From Lachnospiraceae bacterium A4 (lineage in GTDB: Bacteria; Bacillota; Clostridia; Lachnospirales; Lachnospiraceae), in contig KE159542.1 in NCBI GenBank assembly GCA_000403215.2, forward strand, positions 31,960 through 77,265: a stretch of DNA of 45,306 nt. Reading direction: 5' to 3'. The position numbers and the translations under genes are program-made. Below, one piece after another: positions 6,308 to 32,240 of this stretch. The notes below the pieces were generated by a model. The model saw only the letters and a program-made list of their open reading frames with translations, ran no database searches and was not told the origin of the DNA. The number at the start of each line of letters is the position of its first letter. The first letter of the stretch is position 1.

Positions 6308-8005
6308 TTAAATATACGGTTTGCAGTGCACCACGCACTCTTTCCCGCAAAATGCGATACCGTAATAGCTGATATATTTATAGCCGTCATTTCGAAGCTC
6401 CACTTCGTACTGTCTGTCAACAATCTGCTGAATTGCCTCGTCTGCCTTCTGGTCTAGCTCATCAAAATCTTTTGTGGTCTTAAATTCGATGACAAACGCC
6501 TCTCTGCTGCGCCGGATTGGTTTCACTAGCAGGTCACTGCGCCCTTTGCCGCCCTCTCGGTTCGAGCGTATGGTGTAGCCTTTGATCCCGGTCAGCAGCC
6601 CTGCCATCATCCCATGATAATAATATTCATTCTGGTCCATATAGCTGATTGTCTCCTCAAAAATGTCATTGATCTCCTCCGTCATCACAGCACAGTCTTT
6701 TTCGATCACGGCATGGTGCAGTGGATACATGTCCCTTCCCTTCAATTTTTCATGGAACCATTTCTGTATTTTCTGGTTAAAAATATATCGAACCTCTCTG
6801 TTTGGAATGGTGAGCTTTGCATAAATAATCTCCTCTTCTATCCATTCCCTCACTTTGCGGAAATATCCAGTGAAAAACATAAAATTCCAGAGATTATCCC
6901 CCTCGTCATAAATCTCTTTGTAGGTGATATCCTCATGAATCTGTATCTCGATCGATCCGCCTGCCAGCAGCGTTTCTATTTTTTCCCTGTCCTCGTCATC
7001 GGCGCGGTCAACCAGCGTCCTGACAATACTGTTCGAAGAAGTATTTGCCCAGTAAGACATTGGCAGCCAATTCTGATTTGCCTGGGCATCGAACAAATAC
7101 TGTATCACACTCCATGGATTATAAATATCAGTCTGCCCAAACGTATATCCATCATACCAGTCCTTCACCGTCTCATATACATGGTCCATGTCATAATAAT
7201 GGCACATCTGCTGCACTTCGTCTACACGAAATCCAAAATACTCACCATATCTTTCATTTCGTATGGAGACAATATTTAAATTATTCAGTCCTGTAAAAAT
7301 GCTTTCCTTCGACACGCGCAGACAGCCTGTAATCGCCGCAAATCCAAGACTGGTGTTGTCCTTTAATCCACTTTCAAACAAAGCTCTGATGAAATTGATC
7401 ATCTCATTATAAAAACCGCATGAAAATGCATTTTCCAGCGGAACATCATACTCGTCAATCAGCACAATCGTTTTCTTTCTATAATAGATTTCCAGACATT
7501 GCGCCAGAAACAAAATGGATGTCTCATAGTCATTCTGACTGCCCTGCCGGCGCATGAGTTGTAAATATTTCTCCTTATTTTTTTCCAATTCAGGATGCTC
7601 AAGAATAAAGTCGTGGCGTCCAAACTCCTCCGCAAGAACCCTTTCCATCTCCAAATATGACCGCGCAAAGCTCTCCCGCTTGGAATCCTTAAATGTCAGA
7701 TAGATCACTGGGTACTGTCCCCTGTGCGCCAGATAGGATTCTCCTGCCTCCATGATTTTCAGCCCATCAAAAAGGTAAGACCAGTCCCGCCTGTTTCCAT
7801 GCCAGTCCCTGTCGTCCTCAAAGTAATACTTGAGCATACTCATGTTGAGTGTCTTGCCAAACCGGCGCGGGCGTGTGAAAAGCGTGACTTTCGCTTTGCT
7901 GTCCAGCAGTTCTTGAATCATAGGCGTCTTGTCTACGTAATAAAATTCTTTTTGAATCATTTCGGCAAAATCACTGATGCCGATGGGCAGTGCTCTGTAT
8001 TTCAT
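6308..8005 (-). CDS. DUF1703-type AAA-ATPase-like / PD-(D/E)XK protein
   Basis: Large protein of a family abundant in gut Lachnospiraceae and Bacteroidales, biological role unknown. The ATG at 8005 gives MKYRALPIGISDFAEMI, the normal family start, with a strong GGGAGG site upstream. The N-terminal part is an AAA-like ATPase with a P-loop at about 45-52 (RPRRFGKT) and a Walker-B-like TIVLIDEYDVPLENAF. The C-terminal part is a PD-(D/E)XK nuclease-like fold with GRSDLLV supplying the Asp and FVIEFK the Glu and Lys. It ends with YYGIAFCGKECVV, as usual in the family. The length of 565 residues is typical. It lies upstream of the glycosyltransferase genes but is separated from them by about 100 bases and has no evident link to them. 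It might bind or cut nucleic acid, but no activity can be claimed. Confidence 0.85.
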   Translation of the reverse strand: MKYRALPIGISDFAEMIQKEFYYVDKTPMIQELLDSKAKVTLFTRPRRFGKTLNMSMLKYYFEDDRDWHGNRRDWSYLFDGLKIMEAGESYLAHRGQYPVIYLTFKDSKRESFARSYLEMERVLAEEFGRHDFILEHPELEKNKEKYLQLMRRQGSQNDYETSILFLAQCLEIYYRKKTIVLIDEYDVPLENAFSCGFYNEMINFIRALFESGLKDNTSLGFAAITGCLRVSKESIFTGLNNLNIVSIRNERYGEYFGFRVDEVQQMCHYYDMDHVYETVKDWYDGYTFGQTDIYNPWSVIQYLFDAQANQNWLPMSYWANTSSNSIVRTLVDRADDEDREKIETLLAGGSIEIQIHEDITYKEIYDEGDNLWNFMFFTGYFRKVREWIEEEIIYAKLTIPNREVRYIFNQKIQKWFHEKLKGRDMYPLHHAVIEKDCAVMTEEINDIFEETISYMDQNEYYYHGMMAGLLTGIKGYTIRSNREGGKGRSDLLVKPIRRSREAFVIEFKTTKDFDELDQKADEAIQQIVDRQYEVELRNDGYKYISYYGIAFCGKECVVHCKPYI

Positions 8006-8060
8006 AAAATCCTCCCGTCCCGCATGTGGCGGCTCAACGAAACACGCTTGTCTACAAATA

Positions 8061-8081
8061 TAGGAGGCAATCAGCCTCCTA
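8061..8081 (-). promoter_or_regulatory. 8-bp hairpin in the leader of the DUF1703 gene
   Basis: TAGGAGGC and GCCTCCTA form a perfect stem around a five-base loop, 56 bases upstream of the minus-strand ATG at 8005. On either strand the stem contains a Shine-Dalgarno-like AGGAGG paired with its complement. It may be a leader structure affecting expression, or an incidental palindrome. Confidence 0.3.
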
Positions 8082-8160
8082 ATCAAGGAATTTCCCCTAC
8101 CCGACTATGATATCATGTTTTTGTGCGGCGTGCAAGGCTTCAAAACCGCCGTTTTCTCGT

Positions 8161-22172: not shown

Positions 22173-22766
22173 ATGGATTTTTTTTCAAAAGAGGAGGCAG
22201 ACGTAATTGGTGAAATCTCCAACATTTCCATTGGTTCCTCAGCGACAGCGATGAACCTGATGCTTGGACAGCCTATCACCATTACGACGCCGCATGTTAC
22301 TCTTGTACACAAAAATGAAATTTTAGATGATTACGAAAATTCCTGTATTCTGGTACGCGTACAGTATACAGAGGGATTATTCGGCAACAATCTGCTGATC
22401 CTAAAGGATGATGACGCGAAGATCATCACGGATCTTATGATGGGAAACGGTGGAGTTGGAAAATTTTCCACTGGTGATATCACTCCCCTACATATCAGCG
22501 CTGTGTCGGAGGCCATGAACCAGATGACAGCGAGCTCTGCCACGGCGATGAGCAAGATGTTCAACAAAAAGATTGACATTTCCCCGCCGTCCGTTCAACA
22601 GATTGTAGTCGAGAACTTTGAACTTCCAAACGAAATTCCCGACGATCTTTTTGTTAAAATTAACTTCAGACTGAAAATCGGAAAACTGATTGATAGTACG
22701 ATTATGCAATTGTACCCGTTTGATCTTGCACACTCCATTTACAAATTATTCCAGAGGAGGAACTAA
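22173..22766 (+). CDS. cheC: CheC-family CheY-P phosphatase
   Basis: Chemotaxis phosphatase that removes phosphate from CheY. The 197-residue protein has two copies of the CheC/FliY/CheX active-site motif (D/S)x3Ex2N: D10-E14-N17 in DVIGEISN and S109-E113-N116 in SAVSEAMN. Both active sites are complete. It lacks the N-terminal CheY-binding peptide and C-terminal flagellar-switch domain of FliY, so it is a free CheC-type enzyme. The ATG at 22173 is chosen because AAGGAG is six bases upstream. A CheY gene follows after two bases. No CheD, CheA or CheW gene is present in the window. Confidence 0.85.
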   Translation: MDFFSKEEADVIGEISNISIGSSATAMNLMLGQPITITTPHVTLVHKNEILDDYENSCILVRVQYTEGLFGNNLLILKDDDAKIITDLMMGNGGVGKFSTGDITPLHISAVSEAMNQMTASSATAMSKMFNKKIDISPPSVQQIVVENFELPNEIPDDLFVKINFRLKIGKLIDSTIMQLYPFDLAHSIYKLFQRRN

Positions 22767-22768
22767 TA

Positions 22769-23131
22769 ATGGCTAAGAATATTTTAATAGTAGACGATGC
22801 GGCTTTCATGCGGATGATGATCAAGGATATCTTAACAAAAAATGGTTACACGATCGCTGCCGAGGCAGAAAATGGAAAAATTGCTGTAGATAAGTACAAT
22901 GAAACCAAACCTGATTTGGTGCTGATGGATATTACAATGCCGGAGATGGATGGCATCCAGGCGTTAAAGGCAATCAAGGGAAATGACCCAAACGCCTCTG
23001 TCATCATGTGCTCTGCGATGGGACAGCAGGCAATGGTAATCGAGGCAATCCAGTCGGGCGCGAAGGATTTTATCGTGAAGCCCTTCCAAGCAGAACGCGT
23101 ACTAGAAGCCGTCAAAAAGGTAATTGGATAA
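22769..23131 (+). CDS. cheY: Chemotaxis response regulator CheY
   Basis: Single-domain receiver of 120 residues. Phosphorylated CheY binds the flagellar switch and sets the direction of rotation. All catalytic residues are present: D9 and D10, phosphoacceptor D54 in LVLMDITMPEMDG, S82 in CSAMG and K104 in FIVKPF. AGGAGG precedes the ATG, and only two bases separate it from the CheC-type phosphatase gene, so enzyme and substrate are made together. A bidirectional terminator follows. A general sporulation- or stress-type receiver cannot be excluded, but the sequence and partner support CheY. Confidence 0.88.
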   Translation: MAKNILIVDDAAFMRMMIKDILTKNGYTIAAEAENGKIAVDKYNETKPDLVLMDITMPEMDGIQALKAIKGNDPNASVIMCSAMGQQAMVIEAIQSGAKDFIVKPFQAERVLEAVKKVIG

Positions 23132-23963: not shown

Positions 23964-24072
23964 ATACTTATACATTTTACACAAAAAAACATCAAAATTT
24001 ACAATTATAAAGTCTTGTAAACTACTTTTGCAAACCAAAGAAAGAAACGTGTCACAACACAAGAGGGGAATC

Positions 24073-26001
24073 ATGAGTATAATTAATGTAGATATCGACA
24101 AGTGCGTGGGCTGTAATGCCTGCGTGCGCGCATGTCCGGTGGGAGATGCCAACATCGCGCGCATGGACGAAGAAGGAAAACTGAAAATAATGATTGACGA
24201 TGAGAAATGTATCAAATGCGGCGCCTGTATCCGTGCCTGTTCACACAGTGCCCGCTCATATATTGACGATACACAGCGTTTCTTGCAGGATTTGGCAAAC
24301 GGACAGGAGATCGCGCTCATCGCGGCGCCGTCCATCAAAATCGCCTTTGACGGAAACTGGCGCCATGCCCTGCAATGGCTCAGCAACCACGGCATCAAAA
24401 AAATCTATGACGTCAGCTTCGGCGCAGACATCTGCACTTGGGCACACTTGCGGTATCTGGAGAAAAATCCCGGCAAAAAGCTCATCTCACAACCCTGTGC
24501 AGCAGTTGTCAACTATGTGCAGCGTCACAAGCCGGACCTTTTTTCCAATCTCTCACCGATCCACAGCCCGATGCTCTGTCTTGCGGTATACATCAAGAAA
24601 GTAATCGGATACCGTGGGAAAATTGCCGCCATCTCGCCGTGTGTCGCCAAGATCGAGGAGTTTCGTGAGACGGGACTGGTGGACTACAATGTGACGATGG
24701 AGCACTTAAAACGCTACTTTGATGAGAATGGCGTCAAACTGCCAGAAGTCAAAATCTTCAGCGAATTTGAATTTGACGGGCAGCAGGGATTAGAGGGCGC
24801 CATATACCCCAAGCCGGGCGGACTGATGAGCAATATCCTAGCACATGCGCCAAACCTGAACGTCATCACCTCCGAGGGCACAGAATCCCTCTATCATGAC
24901 ATGGAAACCTACAGCGGCCTGAGAGAGCAGGACAAGCCGGACCTGTTCGATGTGCTCAACTGCGAGGACGGCTGCAATGGCGGACCTGCAACGGGTGTGC
25001 ATTACCAGCGCTTTGCCATGAACAACATCATGCACGACGTAGAGCAGTATGCCAAAAAGGTGCGCAAGGCACACACTACCAAAAAAGGGGTAGACCAGCA
25101 GTTTGCAGAGTTTGACAAAACATTAAATCTCAATGATTATATCCGTACATACAAGCACTATGATGTCGAGAAGAATCCCATCACAGAACGGGAGATTGAC
25201 AATGCTTTCACAATGATGGGAAAAACAACCACGGCAGAAAAGCATTTTGACTGCCACTCCTGCGGCTACCACTCATGCCGCGATATGGCGGTTGCCATTG
25301 CCCGCGGGCTGAACACGCCTGAGAACTGCCATGAGTACATGATGAAGTCTATCCAAGAAGAGCGCCTCCGCGTAAGCGAAGTGAATGAAAAAGTACTGGC
25401 GATGAACAATGAGCTGATGCGCGTGTTCCGTGATCTGTACGAAAATATCGAGACGGTCAAGCATGAGACGGAACAAATCCGGGAGGAGAGCGGCAAAAGC
25501 TCTAATGAAATGACAACTGTGTCACAGCGCATGGAGGACTTGAATCAAATGAACCAGCACATCAAAGCTGCAATGCTGGCGATCAACCAGAGCATTGTCA
25601 AGTACAATGAGATGACACAGAATGTAGAAAAAATTGCTGGAAAAATTAACCTTCTCTCACTCAACGCCGCGATCGAAGCGGCGCGGGCTGGCGAAGCTGG
25701 ACGGGGTTTTGCGGTCGTGGCGTCCAATATCCGCGAACTCTCCAACAACTCAAAATCCTCCGTCGGCAGCGCGCGTGACAATGACGAGGAAATCCGTACC
25801 GCGATTGACAATGTCAATCAGGCAATCAAGAGCTTTGACGCCACAATCAACAGCCTGATCACCGCGACAGGCGACGCCATTCAAGGCGTGAAGCTGACCT
25901 CCGACAACAGCCAGCGCATCCGCAAATCGATGGAAGAGCTCGAACAGCTCGCAAAAGAGGTGGAGGATATGATTGTCGAGACAAATAAAGTGCTGCAATA
26001 A
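24073..26001 (+). CDS. Sensory [FeFe]-hydrogenase fused to a chemoreceptor signalling domain
   Basis: Soluble chemoreceptor of 642 residues whose input is an [FeFe]-hydrogenase module. Two 2[4Fe-4S] ferredoxin motifs come first (C11, C14, C17, C21 and C46, C49, C52, C56). The H-cluster domain (about 78-330) keeps the four cluster cysteines C142, C190 ([11 protein letters not shown]), C297 and C301 (NCEDGCNGG). The cysteine that shuttles protons in catalytic enzymes, in TSCCP, appears to be Pro141. A further FeS domain has C394, C397, C402 and C419. The rest (about 425-642) is a methyl-accepting-type coiled coil with the hairpin tip [20 protein letters not shown]. No membrane helix or HAMP is present. 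It fits the chemotaxis-linked sensory hydrogenases (HydDB group C2 type). The ATG at 24073 is chosen for GAGGGG just upstream; an earlier in-frame stretch is untranslated leader. H2 or redox sensing is inferred. Confidence 0.88.
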
Positions 26002-30199: not shown

Positions 30200-31141
30200 T
30201 TACATCTCCTGCACCATTGCAACCGCCTGTTCGATAATATGTTCGAACATTTCCATCAACACACCTTTTTTGCTGTCGTCAATATCCATATGGTCCATAA
30301 TTTCACCGTAAACCCCTGCCGTGGACGTGAGCGAATCCTGAACCGTCTTAACATACGCACGGTTCTGCTCTACGGCATGGTCAATCGCGTCCCGAACCGC
30401 AGACGTGCCCGATGCGCGCTCTTTGATATCATCAAAATACCTGCCCGTCTCCTCCATACTCCTGATACTGCCAAGCATCGCCTCATCTGACGCCTGTATA
30501 AATTTATTCAGCTCACTGCTCTTTTGCTCAACCTCCACAATGCTTGCATGGATACCATCCACCATATCCTGACTCATCTTTGCGAGCTTGCCGACCTCCT
30601 CCGCAACCACCGCAAAACCCTTTCCCTGCTCACCTGCCCGCGCCGCCTCAATGCTTGCATTGAGCGACAAAAGATCTGTCTGGTCTGCGACCTCGCTAAT
30701 ACCCGACAGGCTGTTACGGATTTTGTCAAGCGCCTGCTGAAGCTGTCCAAACGTTGCCGTCATATTCCTGAAATTCTCCTTCACAGAGCTGGCGTCCTGC
30801 CGCAGACGCTCCATCTGGCGCTGCGCGTCTGCCACCGATTGATCAATCTCCATCTCCACATCATTGAACTGGTCGGCGGCGGCGGTGATTTCCTGAAACC
30901 CGTCATCCATTCCGTTGATATCGTCCCGCAGGCTGATAATGTCATTTTGCAGCCCCGCAAGCTGTTCATTGGCATAGCGCATTTTCTGGGTCGTCTGAAA
31001 GACATCTCCCGCCAGACTCTCCACCACCTGAGCGGCGCTTGTCAGCGCATACTCCAACGGATACTTGTCAAACTGTACTCCTTTTTCCGGCAGGACTGCT
31101 GCCTCCTTCTCTGCTGCTTTTTTTCCAAATCGTCTCAACAC
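30200..31141 (-). CDS. Soluble methyl-accepting-type chemoreceptor
   Basis: Cytoplasmic chemoreceptor of 313 residues with no membrane helix. It is nearly all coiled coil (about 35-300) and has the signalling hairpin tip ([20 protein letters not shown], then [12 protein letters not shown]) at about 152-183. No sensory domain is fused to the N-terminus, which is short and basic ([13 protein letters not shown]). It starts with GTG at 31141 behind GGGAGG, 28 bases after the stop of the FIST gene. The two form an operon, and FIST is the likely separate input module. It should signal to CheA through CheW encoded elsewhere. Confidence 0.87.
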
Positions 31142-31169
31142 GCTTTTTCCTCCCTATTTTTCCGTCAAA

Positions 31170-32240
31170 CTACTCAAATGCCAGACAGCACATTGTCTGG
31201 TTGACAAACTGCGTATTATAATGTTCTCCCACGCCAACCATGCCCGCGTGCGAAAAGCTGCGGCTCATCTCAGCAAGATAGCTGTCCCAGTACTTGTCGT
31301 CATTGAACATAATATAGCGAAACAGACAATTGACAGACAGCACCGCAGACGCCCTGCCCAGATCATGCTGTATCTTTGTGATGGTATCCTGCACTACTTC
31401 TCTGTAGTCTCCCATATTCAGAATCGTCAAAAAATCCATCTTGTTTGCCGGCCGAAACGTCGTGATGCTGCCGTCCGCCTCAACGCCCTTGATCGAAACG
31501 ATATATGTATCCGAGTCGCAGACATGCCCAAACGGGTTTTTGAACGTCTGTGTCGTGATTTTATCTCTGGAGATTCCCAGCTCCGAAGTGTAAACCTTCT
31601 CCGCAGAAACATTTTCCAAAGTACGGATTTTATAGGATTTGGGGTCCGCCTCCGTCACCATAAACTGCTTCTGTTTATCCGAGTGGACATAGATATTTTC
31701 CTTGTAGGACTTAATCTTTCCTTTGAGATTGCGAAACATAAAAAACGCACATGCGTCCTGATACACTTTGCCATTACATGCAACCGAAGCCGAATTGCTC
31801 GTACCACCCGCAAGATCGTATCCCGCGCGGCAGAGATAATTTGACAAAGTTGTGACCGCACGGACATCACAGCCCGCCGAGCAGATATCGAAACATGCCG
31901 TCCTCCCCCGCTCGCCACCGACCGCCTTCACCGCGTTTTCAAGGCGCCTGATATATTTGATGGGCATGACTGACGCCTGCTCAAGCACATCTGCCACGAC
32001 TTTGATCTCGCCCCGCATCGCAGTCACTGTGATGCCTTGGTCAAAAAACTGCTTATCTATATACGCCTGCCCCACGCCGCCTATACACGCAACGCCGGGA
32101 AAACGCTTCTCAATCTCTGTTGCGGCGTGCTCTAGCATCTCCTCGCCCGCAACCGAAAAAAACAGCGCCGCAGGTTCGCTGATTCCGCTCAAAGCCTCCG
32201 TCACATCTCCCTTCTTGCTGCTGCCAAATGTAAATTTCAT
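31170..32240 (-). CDS. FIST domain sensory protein
   Basis: Cytoplasmic ligand-binding protein of 356 residues with FIST N- and C-terminal domains. FIST domains are predicted to bind small molecules such as amino acids and occur with chemoreceptors and cyclic-dinucleotide enzymes. The N-terminal half (about 15-215) includes FPGVACIGGVGQAYID and AGGTSNSASVACNGKVYQDA. The C-terminal half ends with SHAGMVGVGEHYNTQFVNQT, typical of FIST_C. There are no membrane segments. GGAGG precedes the ATG, and TATAAT on the minus strand at 32274-32279 is a likely -10. It is the first gene of a two-gene operon with the soluble chemoreceptor. Confidence 0.85.
   Translation of the reverse strand: MKFTFGSSKKGDVTEALSGISEPAALFFSVAGEEMLEHAATEIEKRFPGVACIGGVGQAYIDKQFFDQGITVTAMRGEIKVVADVLEQASVMPIKYIRRLENAVKAVGGERGRTACFDICSAGCDVRAVTTLSNYLCRAGYDLAGGTSNSASVACNGKVYQDACAFFMFRNLKGKIKSYKENIYVHSDKQKQFMVTEADPKSYKIRTLENVSAEKVYTSELGISRDKITTQTFKNPFGHVCDSDTYIVSIKGVEADGSITTFRPANKMDFLTILNMGDYREVVQDTITKIQHDLGRASAVLSVNCLFRYIMFNDDKYWDSYLAEMSRSFSHAGMVGVGEHYNTQFVNQTMCCLAFE

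Follow-up and report, generated by a model that had tools for sequence, protein, structure and literature searches.

The window, that is the whole stretch of 45,306 nucleotides analysed here, carries on its forward strand a gene for a fusion of a sensory [FeFe]-hydrogenase (HydS) with a chemoreceptor (MCP), preceded by two genes related to chemotaxis. The features are:

22176..22766, forward: FliY-N/CheC-like CheY-P phosphatase (PF04509, 8e-24; PRK08119, 238 bits versus a cut-off of 218)
22769..23131, forward: CheY-like response regulator (PF00072, 8e-34)
24063..24069, forward: GAGGGGA, probable ribosome-binding site (read from the sequence), with the ATG at 24073 downstream
24073..26001, forward: HydS-MCP fusion gene, 642 aa (translation, Pfam, orthologues)
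24100..24249, forward: ferredoxin-type domain, residues 10-59, two four-Cys motifs (Pfam Fer4_7, 5e-10)
24313..24987, forward: hydrogenase H-domain, residues 81-305 (Pfam Fe_hyd_lg_C, 3.1e-28; Foldseek)
24421..24447, forward: GADICTWAH, residues 117-125, with C121 and H125, the latter at the position of CpI E279 (CpI alignment, conservation)
24484..24516, forward: L1 motif, residues 138-148, with P141 at the C299 position and ligand C142 (CpI alignment, conservation)
24634..24651, forward: L2 motif SPCVAK, residues 188-193, with S188 at M353, ligand C190 and K193 at K358
24955..24975, forward: L3 motif LNCEDGC, residues 295-301, with L295 at M497 and ligands C297 and C301
25246..25329, forward: C-terminal FeS domain PF04060, residues 392-419, Cys 394/397/402/419 (Pfam, 1.5e-6)
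25558..25986, forward: MCP signalling domain, residues 496-638 (Pfam MCPsignal, 5.2e-20), with its tip at roughly 516-560

The translation of 24073-26001 has no internal stop and yields 642 residues; as to the start codon, L005-L008 share the N-terminal MSIINVD with the window protein. The original prediction had placed two ferredoxin motifs, an H-domain, a further FeS domain and an MCP domain in a single protein devoid of membrane helices, and this architecture is borne out by the translation and by the Pfam scan (E≤0.001), in which the MCP domain scores 72.4 bits with PF00015 versus a cut-off of 34.6 and has a nearly invariant tip, while hydropathy averaging reveals no membrane helix, the highest 19-residue mean being 1.25. 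All 50 matches listed by Foldseek for the whole AlphaFold2 model are hydrogenases or hydrogenase-like subunits, the first among them being CbA5H (8zqd, E 4.4e-17). The model (mean pLDDT 78.9, pTM 0.63) is globular to residue ~418 and draws 419-641 as one helix lacking a hairpin turn. The predicted complete chemoreceptor hairpin is thus backed by the MCPsignal match but not by the model; we infer a receptor hairpin from Pfam and from the alignment of residues 434-630 with the solved receptor 3g67, the best solved MCP match by sequence (3.8e-12). The soluble chemoreceptor 3g67/3g6b (Tm14) shares the receptor hairpin with the window protein, but has no hydrogenase-fold input.

Residues of the H-cluster pocket were mapped by phmmer alignment to variants of CpI, whose residue numbers are anchored on the four cluster cysteines. 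C142 corresponds to C300, C190 to C355 and C297/C301 to C499/C503; among other pairs S161 aligns with S319, S165-P166 with S323-P324, A85 with A230 and Y245 with F417, while E279 is aligned with H125 and E282 falls in a gap. The check around L1 that had been suggested for the prediction places C142 on a CpI ligand, and the proposed replacement of the proton-shuttling cysteine by Pro141 holds, since Pro141 occupies position 299. The four H-cluster cysteines are likewise where they had been claimed to be, although in this alignment they mark the predicted site of the [4Fe-4S]H cubane and do not imply the presence of the [2Fe] half. As the C299 and E279 positions are taken by Pro and His while the [2Fe] contacts are kept, the first proton carriers are gone and the diiron contacts remain. 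The positions of K193, S165-P166, A85 and P86, which from work on CpI we take to line the [2Fe] site, are conserved, so the pocket still looks built for a diiron unit. According to the passages of PMC10055695 covered, sensory sequences have Cys at the C299 position in 17%, Ala in ~43% and Pro in ~10% of cases, and Gly, Ser or Thr at M353; Pro141 is thus a known sensory variant, and the modified pocket of the prediction is present but not peculiar to the window protein.

The canonical motif of catalytic groups A and B, TSC[CS]P, is replaced here by SQPCA, and the catalytic family models score far below their cut-offs (TIGR04105, 138.2 bits versus 450; TIGR02512, 99 versus 405.95). The changes C299 to Pro141, E279 to His125, M353 to Ser188 and M497 to Leu295, together with the MCP output, agree with the earlier assignment to a sensor rather than an H2-producing enzyme. 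The same four changes, the MCP fusion and the existence of a separate group B enzyme (L001) in the genome make it very improbable that the protein is a leftover catalytic enzyme attached to a receptor and still turning over H2 in the cell, even if the four H-domain cysteines are conserved in 61 of 61 aligned rows and K193 in 60, and if TmHydS, in the part of the source covered, retains activity, far below that of CpI (PMC10055695).

With an H-domain carrying four cluster cysteines and an MCP domain in the same polypeptide, the protein belongs to a kind that has already been named, HydDB group C2, an assignment made from its predicted domain content and the published description of C2. In the covered part of PMC5037454, C2 [FeFe]-hydrogenases, in which the H-domain is linked to an MCP as in the window protein, are labelled 'chemotactic (putative)' and regarded as possible H2 sensors, the sensory role being proposed only; the statement of the prediction that chemotaxis-linked sensory hydrogenases are named as a group is correct in this sense. 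The window subfamily differs from C2 as described in that the MCP is joined straight after the FeS domain with no PAS match and in that it is present in many genomes without detected HydEFG. A Clostridium survey discarded C2 hits as unvalidated (PMC9431212, passages covered), and no experiment on any C2 protein was found in the open PMC literature searched; for other members of group C, physiological hints are given for RaHydS and TsHfsB in the part covered of PMC8924675. An alternative definition, by which group C proteins carry PAS downstream of the C-terminal FeS domain (PMC10407848, PMC13104023, both in part), does not fit, since no PAS matches the window protein at E≤0.001, whereas the same kind of scan detects PAS in L229. 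Group D (TamHydS type: no PAS, an end after the FeS domain and mostly Ala at C299) does not fit either, because of the MCP and Pro141.

The closest characterized systems are TmHydS and TamHydS. As far as the covered passages describe them, both have N-terminal [4Fe-4S] clusters and a C-terminal FeS domain like the window protein, in which Tyr245 stands at the F417 position as does Y223 of TmHydS (PMC10055695, PMC13104023, PMC10407848), and TmHydS shares altered C299, M353 and M497 positions (PMC10055695). They differ in having Ala instead of Pro at C299, and neither is described with an MCP in those passages, TmHydS possessing a PAS domain and TamHydS lacking it. What is new here is not the kind of protein but the description of its subfamily, the finding that sensor carriage and HydG are not linked, and the maturase gap.

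In one genome collection, 451 stretches encode a relative of the window protein (tblastn, E≤1e-3), a recurrence that goes far beyond chance. The best 80 of these 451 loci (identity 53-93%) were retained; most of their record titles denote Lachnospiraceae metagenome-assembled genomes (MAGs) and a few carry other labels; gut samples such as deer cecum or rectum appear in some. By domain content and alignment, the window protein belongs to a conserved Lachnospiraceae subfamily with no PAS match. In 45 aligned members C121, H125, C142, C169, K193, L295 and the FeS cysteines are invariant, position 141 has Pro in all but one, which has Leu, S165-P166 and A85 are kept in 45/45 and P86 in 44/45. A larger table of 61 rows (36 with and 25 without HydG in the genome) was compiled after six of 105 loci had failed the motif pattern (L116, L151, L152, L153, L155 and L174, all of which have QPC and GADIC; L116, with HydG, and L174, without, were left out of it). 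Here A85 is kept in 60 and P86 in 59 rows, C394/C397/C402/C419 are Cys in all 61, and the eight ferredoxin cysteines are Cys in every row readable at those positions; in all, 18 Cys positions are conserved across the table, barring one X and gaps.

Two non-ligand cysteines, C121 (24433-24435) and C169 (24577-24579), are also invariant in 61/61 rows, as is H125; the two cysteines might form a thiol switch or supply an extra ligand. C121 and H125 were considered as markers of the window subfamily alone and rejected, as GADIC also occurs in L020, L027, L221, L222, L224, L227 and L230. The pocket has drifted in L013 and L149, where SQLCASVV and TASS replace SQPCAAVV and AAPS, and in L015, where K193 is replaced by Gln, together with VSSA.

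The host genome encodes a second HydS-MCP protein, L002, which resembles the window protein in domain order and in the QPC motif, with 35% identity, but has GADITTWGY, with Thr at the C121 position (this motif is also found in L225), the window type usually having QPCAA. In L099, L113, L116 and also L231 of G162 the window-type gene is immediately preceded by a second HydS-like ORF (~35% identity); that of G162 is of the L002 type. Proline before the L1 cysteine is further found in proteins with histidine kinase/receiver outputs (L221, L222, L224, L230), some with Hpt, and in a GGDEF-EAL fusion (L225); the motif in such proteins is SQPC or TQPC, and SEPC in L225. L020 and L027 (with MCP) and the kinases L221, L222, L224 and L230 combine this proline with GADIC and C121 as in the window protein, and L020, L027, L221 and L230 share H125 as well, but they differ in having other output domains or a shorter MCP. 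Pfam detects no PF04060 in L020 and L230, and no PAS at E≤0.001 in L221, L222, L224, L225 and L230; as ~180 residues between the FeS domain and the kinase of L221 and L222 lack any Pfam match, a diverged PAS is possible there. The occurrence of a related input module on kinase and GGDEF-EAL outputs counts for the energy-taxis reading of the window protein given below.

A coupling of hydrogen or redox state to swimming had also been suggested. The host genome does contain candidate partners: CheA is encoded twice, each time with P2, dimer, ATPase and CheW domains, CheW also twice, and a CheW-receiver protein of CheV type once; control of the kinase by the receptor is putative. No conserved operon was found around the receptor gene when the available flanks at the 80 loci, often short, were compared: the CheY-like gene is matched at 6/80 loci (of three such matches, one stands at 56% and the others at 35-37%), the PIN7 gene in 5/80 and the 23193-23882 gene in 1/80, the phosphatase has no match among the ORFs of the 80 loci, and L081 retains several genes downstream. 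A SigD-like promoter was found in 0/76 upstream regions (control 21/4000). The phosphatase, which precedes the CheY-like gene, covers only positions 34-220 of the 376 of the FliY model. Elsewhere in the window a FIST-domain protein (31170-32240, reverse strand; 84 bits with the NosP model, below the cut-off of 450) is directly followed downstream, on the same strand, by a 313-aa MCP (30200-31141); the pair at 30200-32240 is possibly a second cytoplasmic chemotaxis input, linked to NO or heme.

The maturase results carry most of the argument. Three H-domain genes are present in the host genome (6.96 Mb in 40 contigs; completeness 97.65%, contamination 3.77%), i.e. L001 (group B, 608.9 bits versus a cut-off of 450), L002 and the window gene. 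HydG has no match in it at E≤0.001, the best HydF score is 94.1 bits versus a cut-off of 325.55, and the best HydE score is 46.8 versus 254.6, the two low matches being BioB and MtaB; the set of HydE, HydF and HydG that goes with a HydEFG-matured hydrogenase is thus not found in this genome. None of the three is over its cut-off in any of the ten genus-sample genomes that have an orthologue with at least 57% identity (the host and nine congeners), while 11 of 38 genomes of the genus have all three. The congeners show two settings for hydEFG: next to genes for a 297-aa regulator and a large sensor in L158-L160, and immediately downstream of a 373-aa gene in L156 and L157. The host contig (L179) carries all these neighbours, and hydEFG is not beside them. 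In contig 2 of G000 (211,913 bases) a 430-aa gene comes next after the gene that stands directly before hydE in L156/L157, while the 297-aa gene, which in L158, L159 and L160 is beside hydE, has genes that read as NUDIX-, PdxK- and TtcA-like after it. That hydEFG is merely missing from the assembly is therefore unlikely, as the expected neighbours are present and the genome-wide searches negative. The window also encodes (6308-8086, reverse strand) an AAA-ATPase_like plus PDDEXK_9 protein; in L159, hydF is immediately followed by the gene for a 571-aa protein that resembles it by eye.

Carriage of the sensor is not linked to HydG in the family at large. Among 396 sampled genomes of the family at least 95% complete, 186 of which have HydG, carriers of the wider sensor type (E≤1e-80 to the window protein) have HydG in 39/82 cases versus 147/314 for the others, i.e. 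no enrichment (odds ratio 1.03, p=0.90), and carriers of the window's own subfamily (E under 1e-200) in 8/13 (p=0.40). Among 50 receptor-carrying genomes from the best 80 loci, 33 have HydG: 4/16 in the close clade (at least 79% identity) and 29/34 in the remainder. A quick tree built from the 61 rows and an outgroup, in which four rows are long-branched, requires 8 changes of the HydG label, compared with 19.6 in shuffles. Since many of the genomes are MAGs, one genome may bear two handles and the rows are related, these counts do not represent independent events. The idea that the receptor type marks the loss of maturases was ruled out by the presence of HydG in 33/50 carriers and in 8/13 of the family sample.

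That the H-domain is a decaying hydrogenase domain carried on a working MCP would fit the maturases not being found and the pocket drift in 2/25 HydG-less rows (L013 with SQLC and TASS; L015). We compared mean pairwise dN between segments; dS is saturated for many pairs, so dN/dS is not reported. For the 12 HydG-less rows of the close clade, dN is 0.062 for the H-domain, 0.094 for the ferredoxin domain, 0.138 for the FeS region, 0.151 and 0.177 for the MCP arms and 0.018 for the tip, the most conserved segment measured. The close clade with HydG (5 rows, L091 being the most distant) yields 0.087, 0.104, 0.176, 0.212 and 0.212, and 0.031, respectively. In the distant sets the values for the H-domain and the N-arm are 0.191 and 0.364 with HydG (15 rows) and 0.251 and 0.443 without it (10 rows). 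The ratio of the two is 0.41 in both close sets and 0.52 and 0.57 in the distant ones, and the H-domain has a lower dN than the ferredoxin domain and the MCP arms in all four sets, two with and two without HydG. The H-domain thus appears about equally constrained in both situations, with no clear sign of relaxation. Together with the conservation of the 18 Cys positions, these values make decay the least credible of the readings, and pocket decay in HydG-less species is rejected for the main clade, L013/L149 and L015 being exceptions.

In our opinion the window protein is best regarded as a cytoplasmic energy-taxis receptor for reductant or H2, whose cofactor in this host is either the [4Fe-4S] cluster alone or an H-cluster assembled independently of HydEFG; we give this reading a probability of roughly 0.55. 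The FeS input would sense how reduced the cell is, perhaps by way of ferredoxin, and would relay this to CheA via the conserved signalling tip; we infer the stimulus, the direction of signalling and the switching cluster alike. If the maturase genes are truly absent, the H-domain of the host would work with the cubane alone or with a HydEFG-independent H-cluster, and the role of H2 as a ligand would depend on the [2Fe] unit ever being present. The missing HydE/F/G and the lack of HydG enrichment favour a readout independent of a HydEFG-made cofactor, while HydG in 33/50 carrier genomes counts against it; in other words, the pocket residues seem to speak for a diiron site and the genomes against the known route of filling it. 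With regard to the switch, H2 changes the structure of TamHydS without reducing its C-terminal cluster (PMC13104023, in the part covered), which argues against the C-terminal cluster, and the switch could lie in the H-domain. The original prediction spoke of a reading of H2 or electron pressure: as HydEFG was not found in the host and HydG is not enriched among sensor carriers, H2 sensing is putative and electron pressure at least as likely a stimulus.

A plain H2 receptor, in which a full H-cluster (HydEFG having been missed, or another route being used) binds H2 slowly and a change of its state acts on CheA to produce hydrogen taxis, is a weaker candidate. It draws on the conserved [2Fe] contacts, on the same 33/50 genomes with HydG, on the naming of C2 as a possible H2 sensor by HydDB (PMC5037454) and, in the covered passages of PMC10055695 and PMC13104023, on the acceptance of a synthetic [2Fe] unit by TmHydS despite Ser at the M497 position and on the reaction of TamHydS with H2. 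It is opposed by the maturase searches in the host and the nine congeners, by the other genes that in one host contig hold the positions adjacent to hydEFG in congeners, and by the lack of HydG enrichment among sensor carriers, so we consider it unlikely compared with the energy-taxis receptor described above.

The maturase gap extends beyond the receptor. An H-domain gene is present in 93 of the 98 relatives sampled; all three maturases exceed their cut-offs in 36 of the relatives and none does in 56, and 51 combine an H-domain gene with none of the three; among the 52 good genomes (at least 95% complete, at most 5% contaminated) all have an H-domain gene, 25 have all three maturases and 25 none. 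Group B genes keep the canonical motifs in 21/21 cases and group A genes in 20/20, the genes taken being part of the H-domain places found in the 98 relatives, with 14 in each group from HydG-less genomes (for group B the host included). Eleven of 30 kept H-domain loci come from HydG-less genomes, some of them <90% complete, and all 11 retain TSC[CS]P and the other two motifs. A case in point is G080 (contig 1, L162), a single-contig 3.2 Mb genome with a canonical hydrogenase (TSCCPAW, MPCLAK, MACPGGC), in the whole of which none of HydE, HydF and HydG is over its cut-off. For group B, pN is 0.044 without and 0.050 with HydG; the corresponding values for group A are 0.105 and 0.046, the former falling to 0.069 when the distant G035 gene is removed, at a pS of 0.666 versus 0.612. 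Group A may therefore be slightly less constrained in HydG-less genomes, which runs somewhat against a maturase-independent reading. The term HydEFG does not occur in the part covered of a 2025 paper on gut hydrogenases (PMC12578642), and no title or abstract on a maturase gap in Lachnospiraceae was found in the open PMC literature searched.

We tentatively suggest, at somewhat less than even odds, that in part of the Lachnospiraceae both sensory and catalytic [FeFe]-hydrogenase folds stay under selection without HydEFG, through an unknown route to the H-cluster or a function of the cubane alone. If the latter is the case, the window receptor would have the shape of a hydrogenase but act as a redox chemoreceptor without H2 sensing. 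The subfamily offers a natural comparison, as closely related receptors occur both in species that have HydG and in others that do not. If the gap is real, gene-based counts of gut H2 producers would need review, or the H-cluster would be made or dispensed with in another way in these bacteria.
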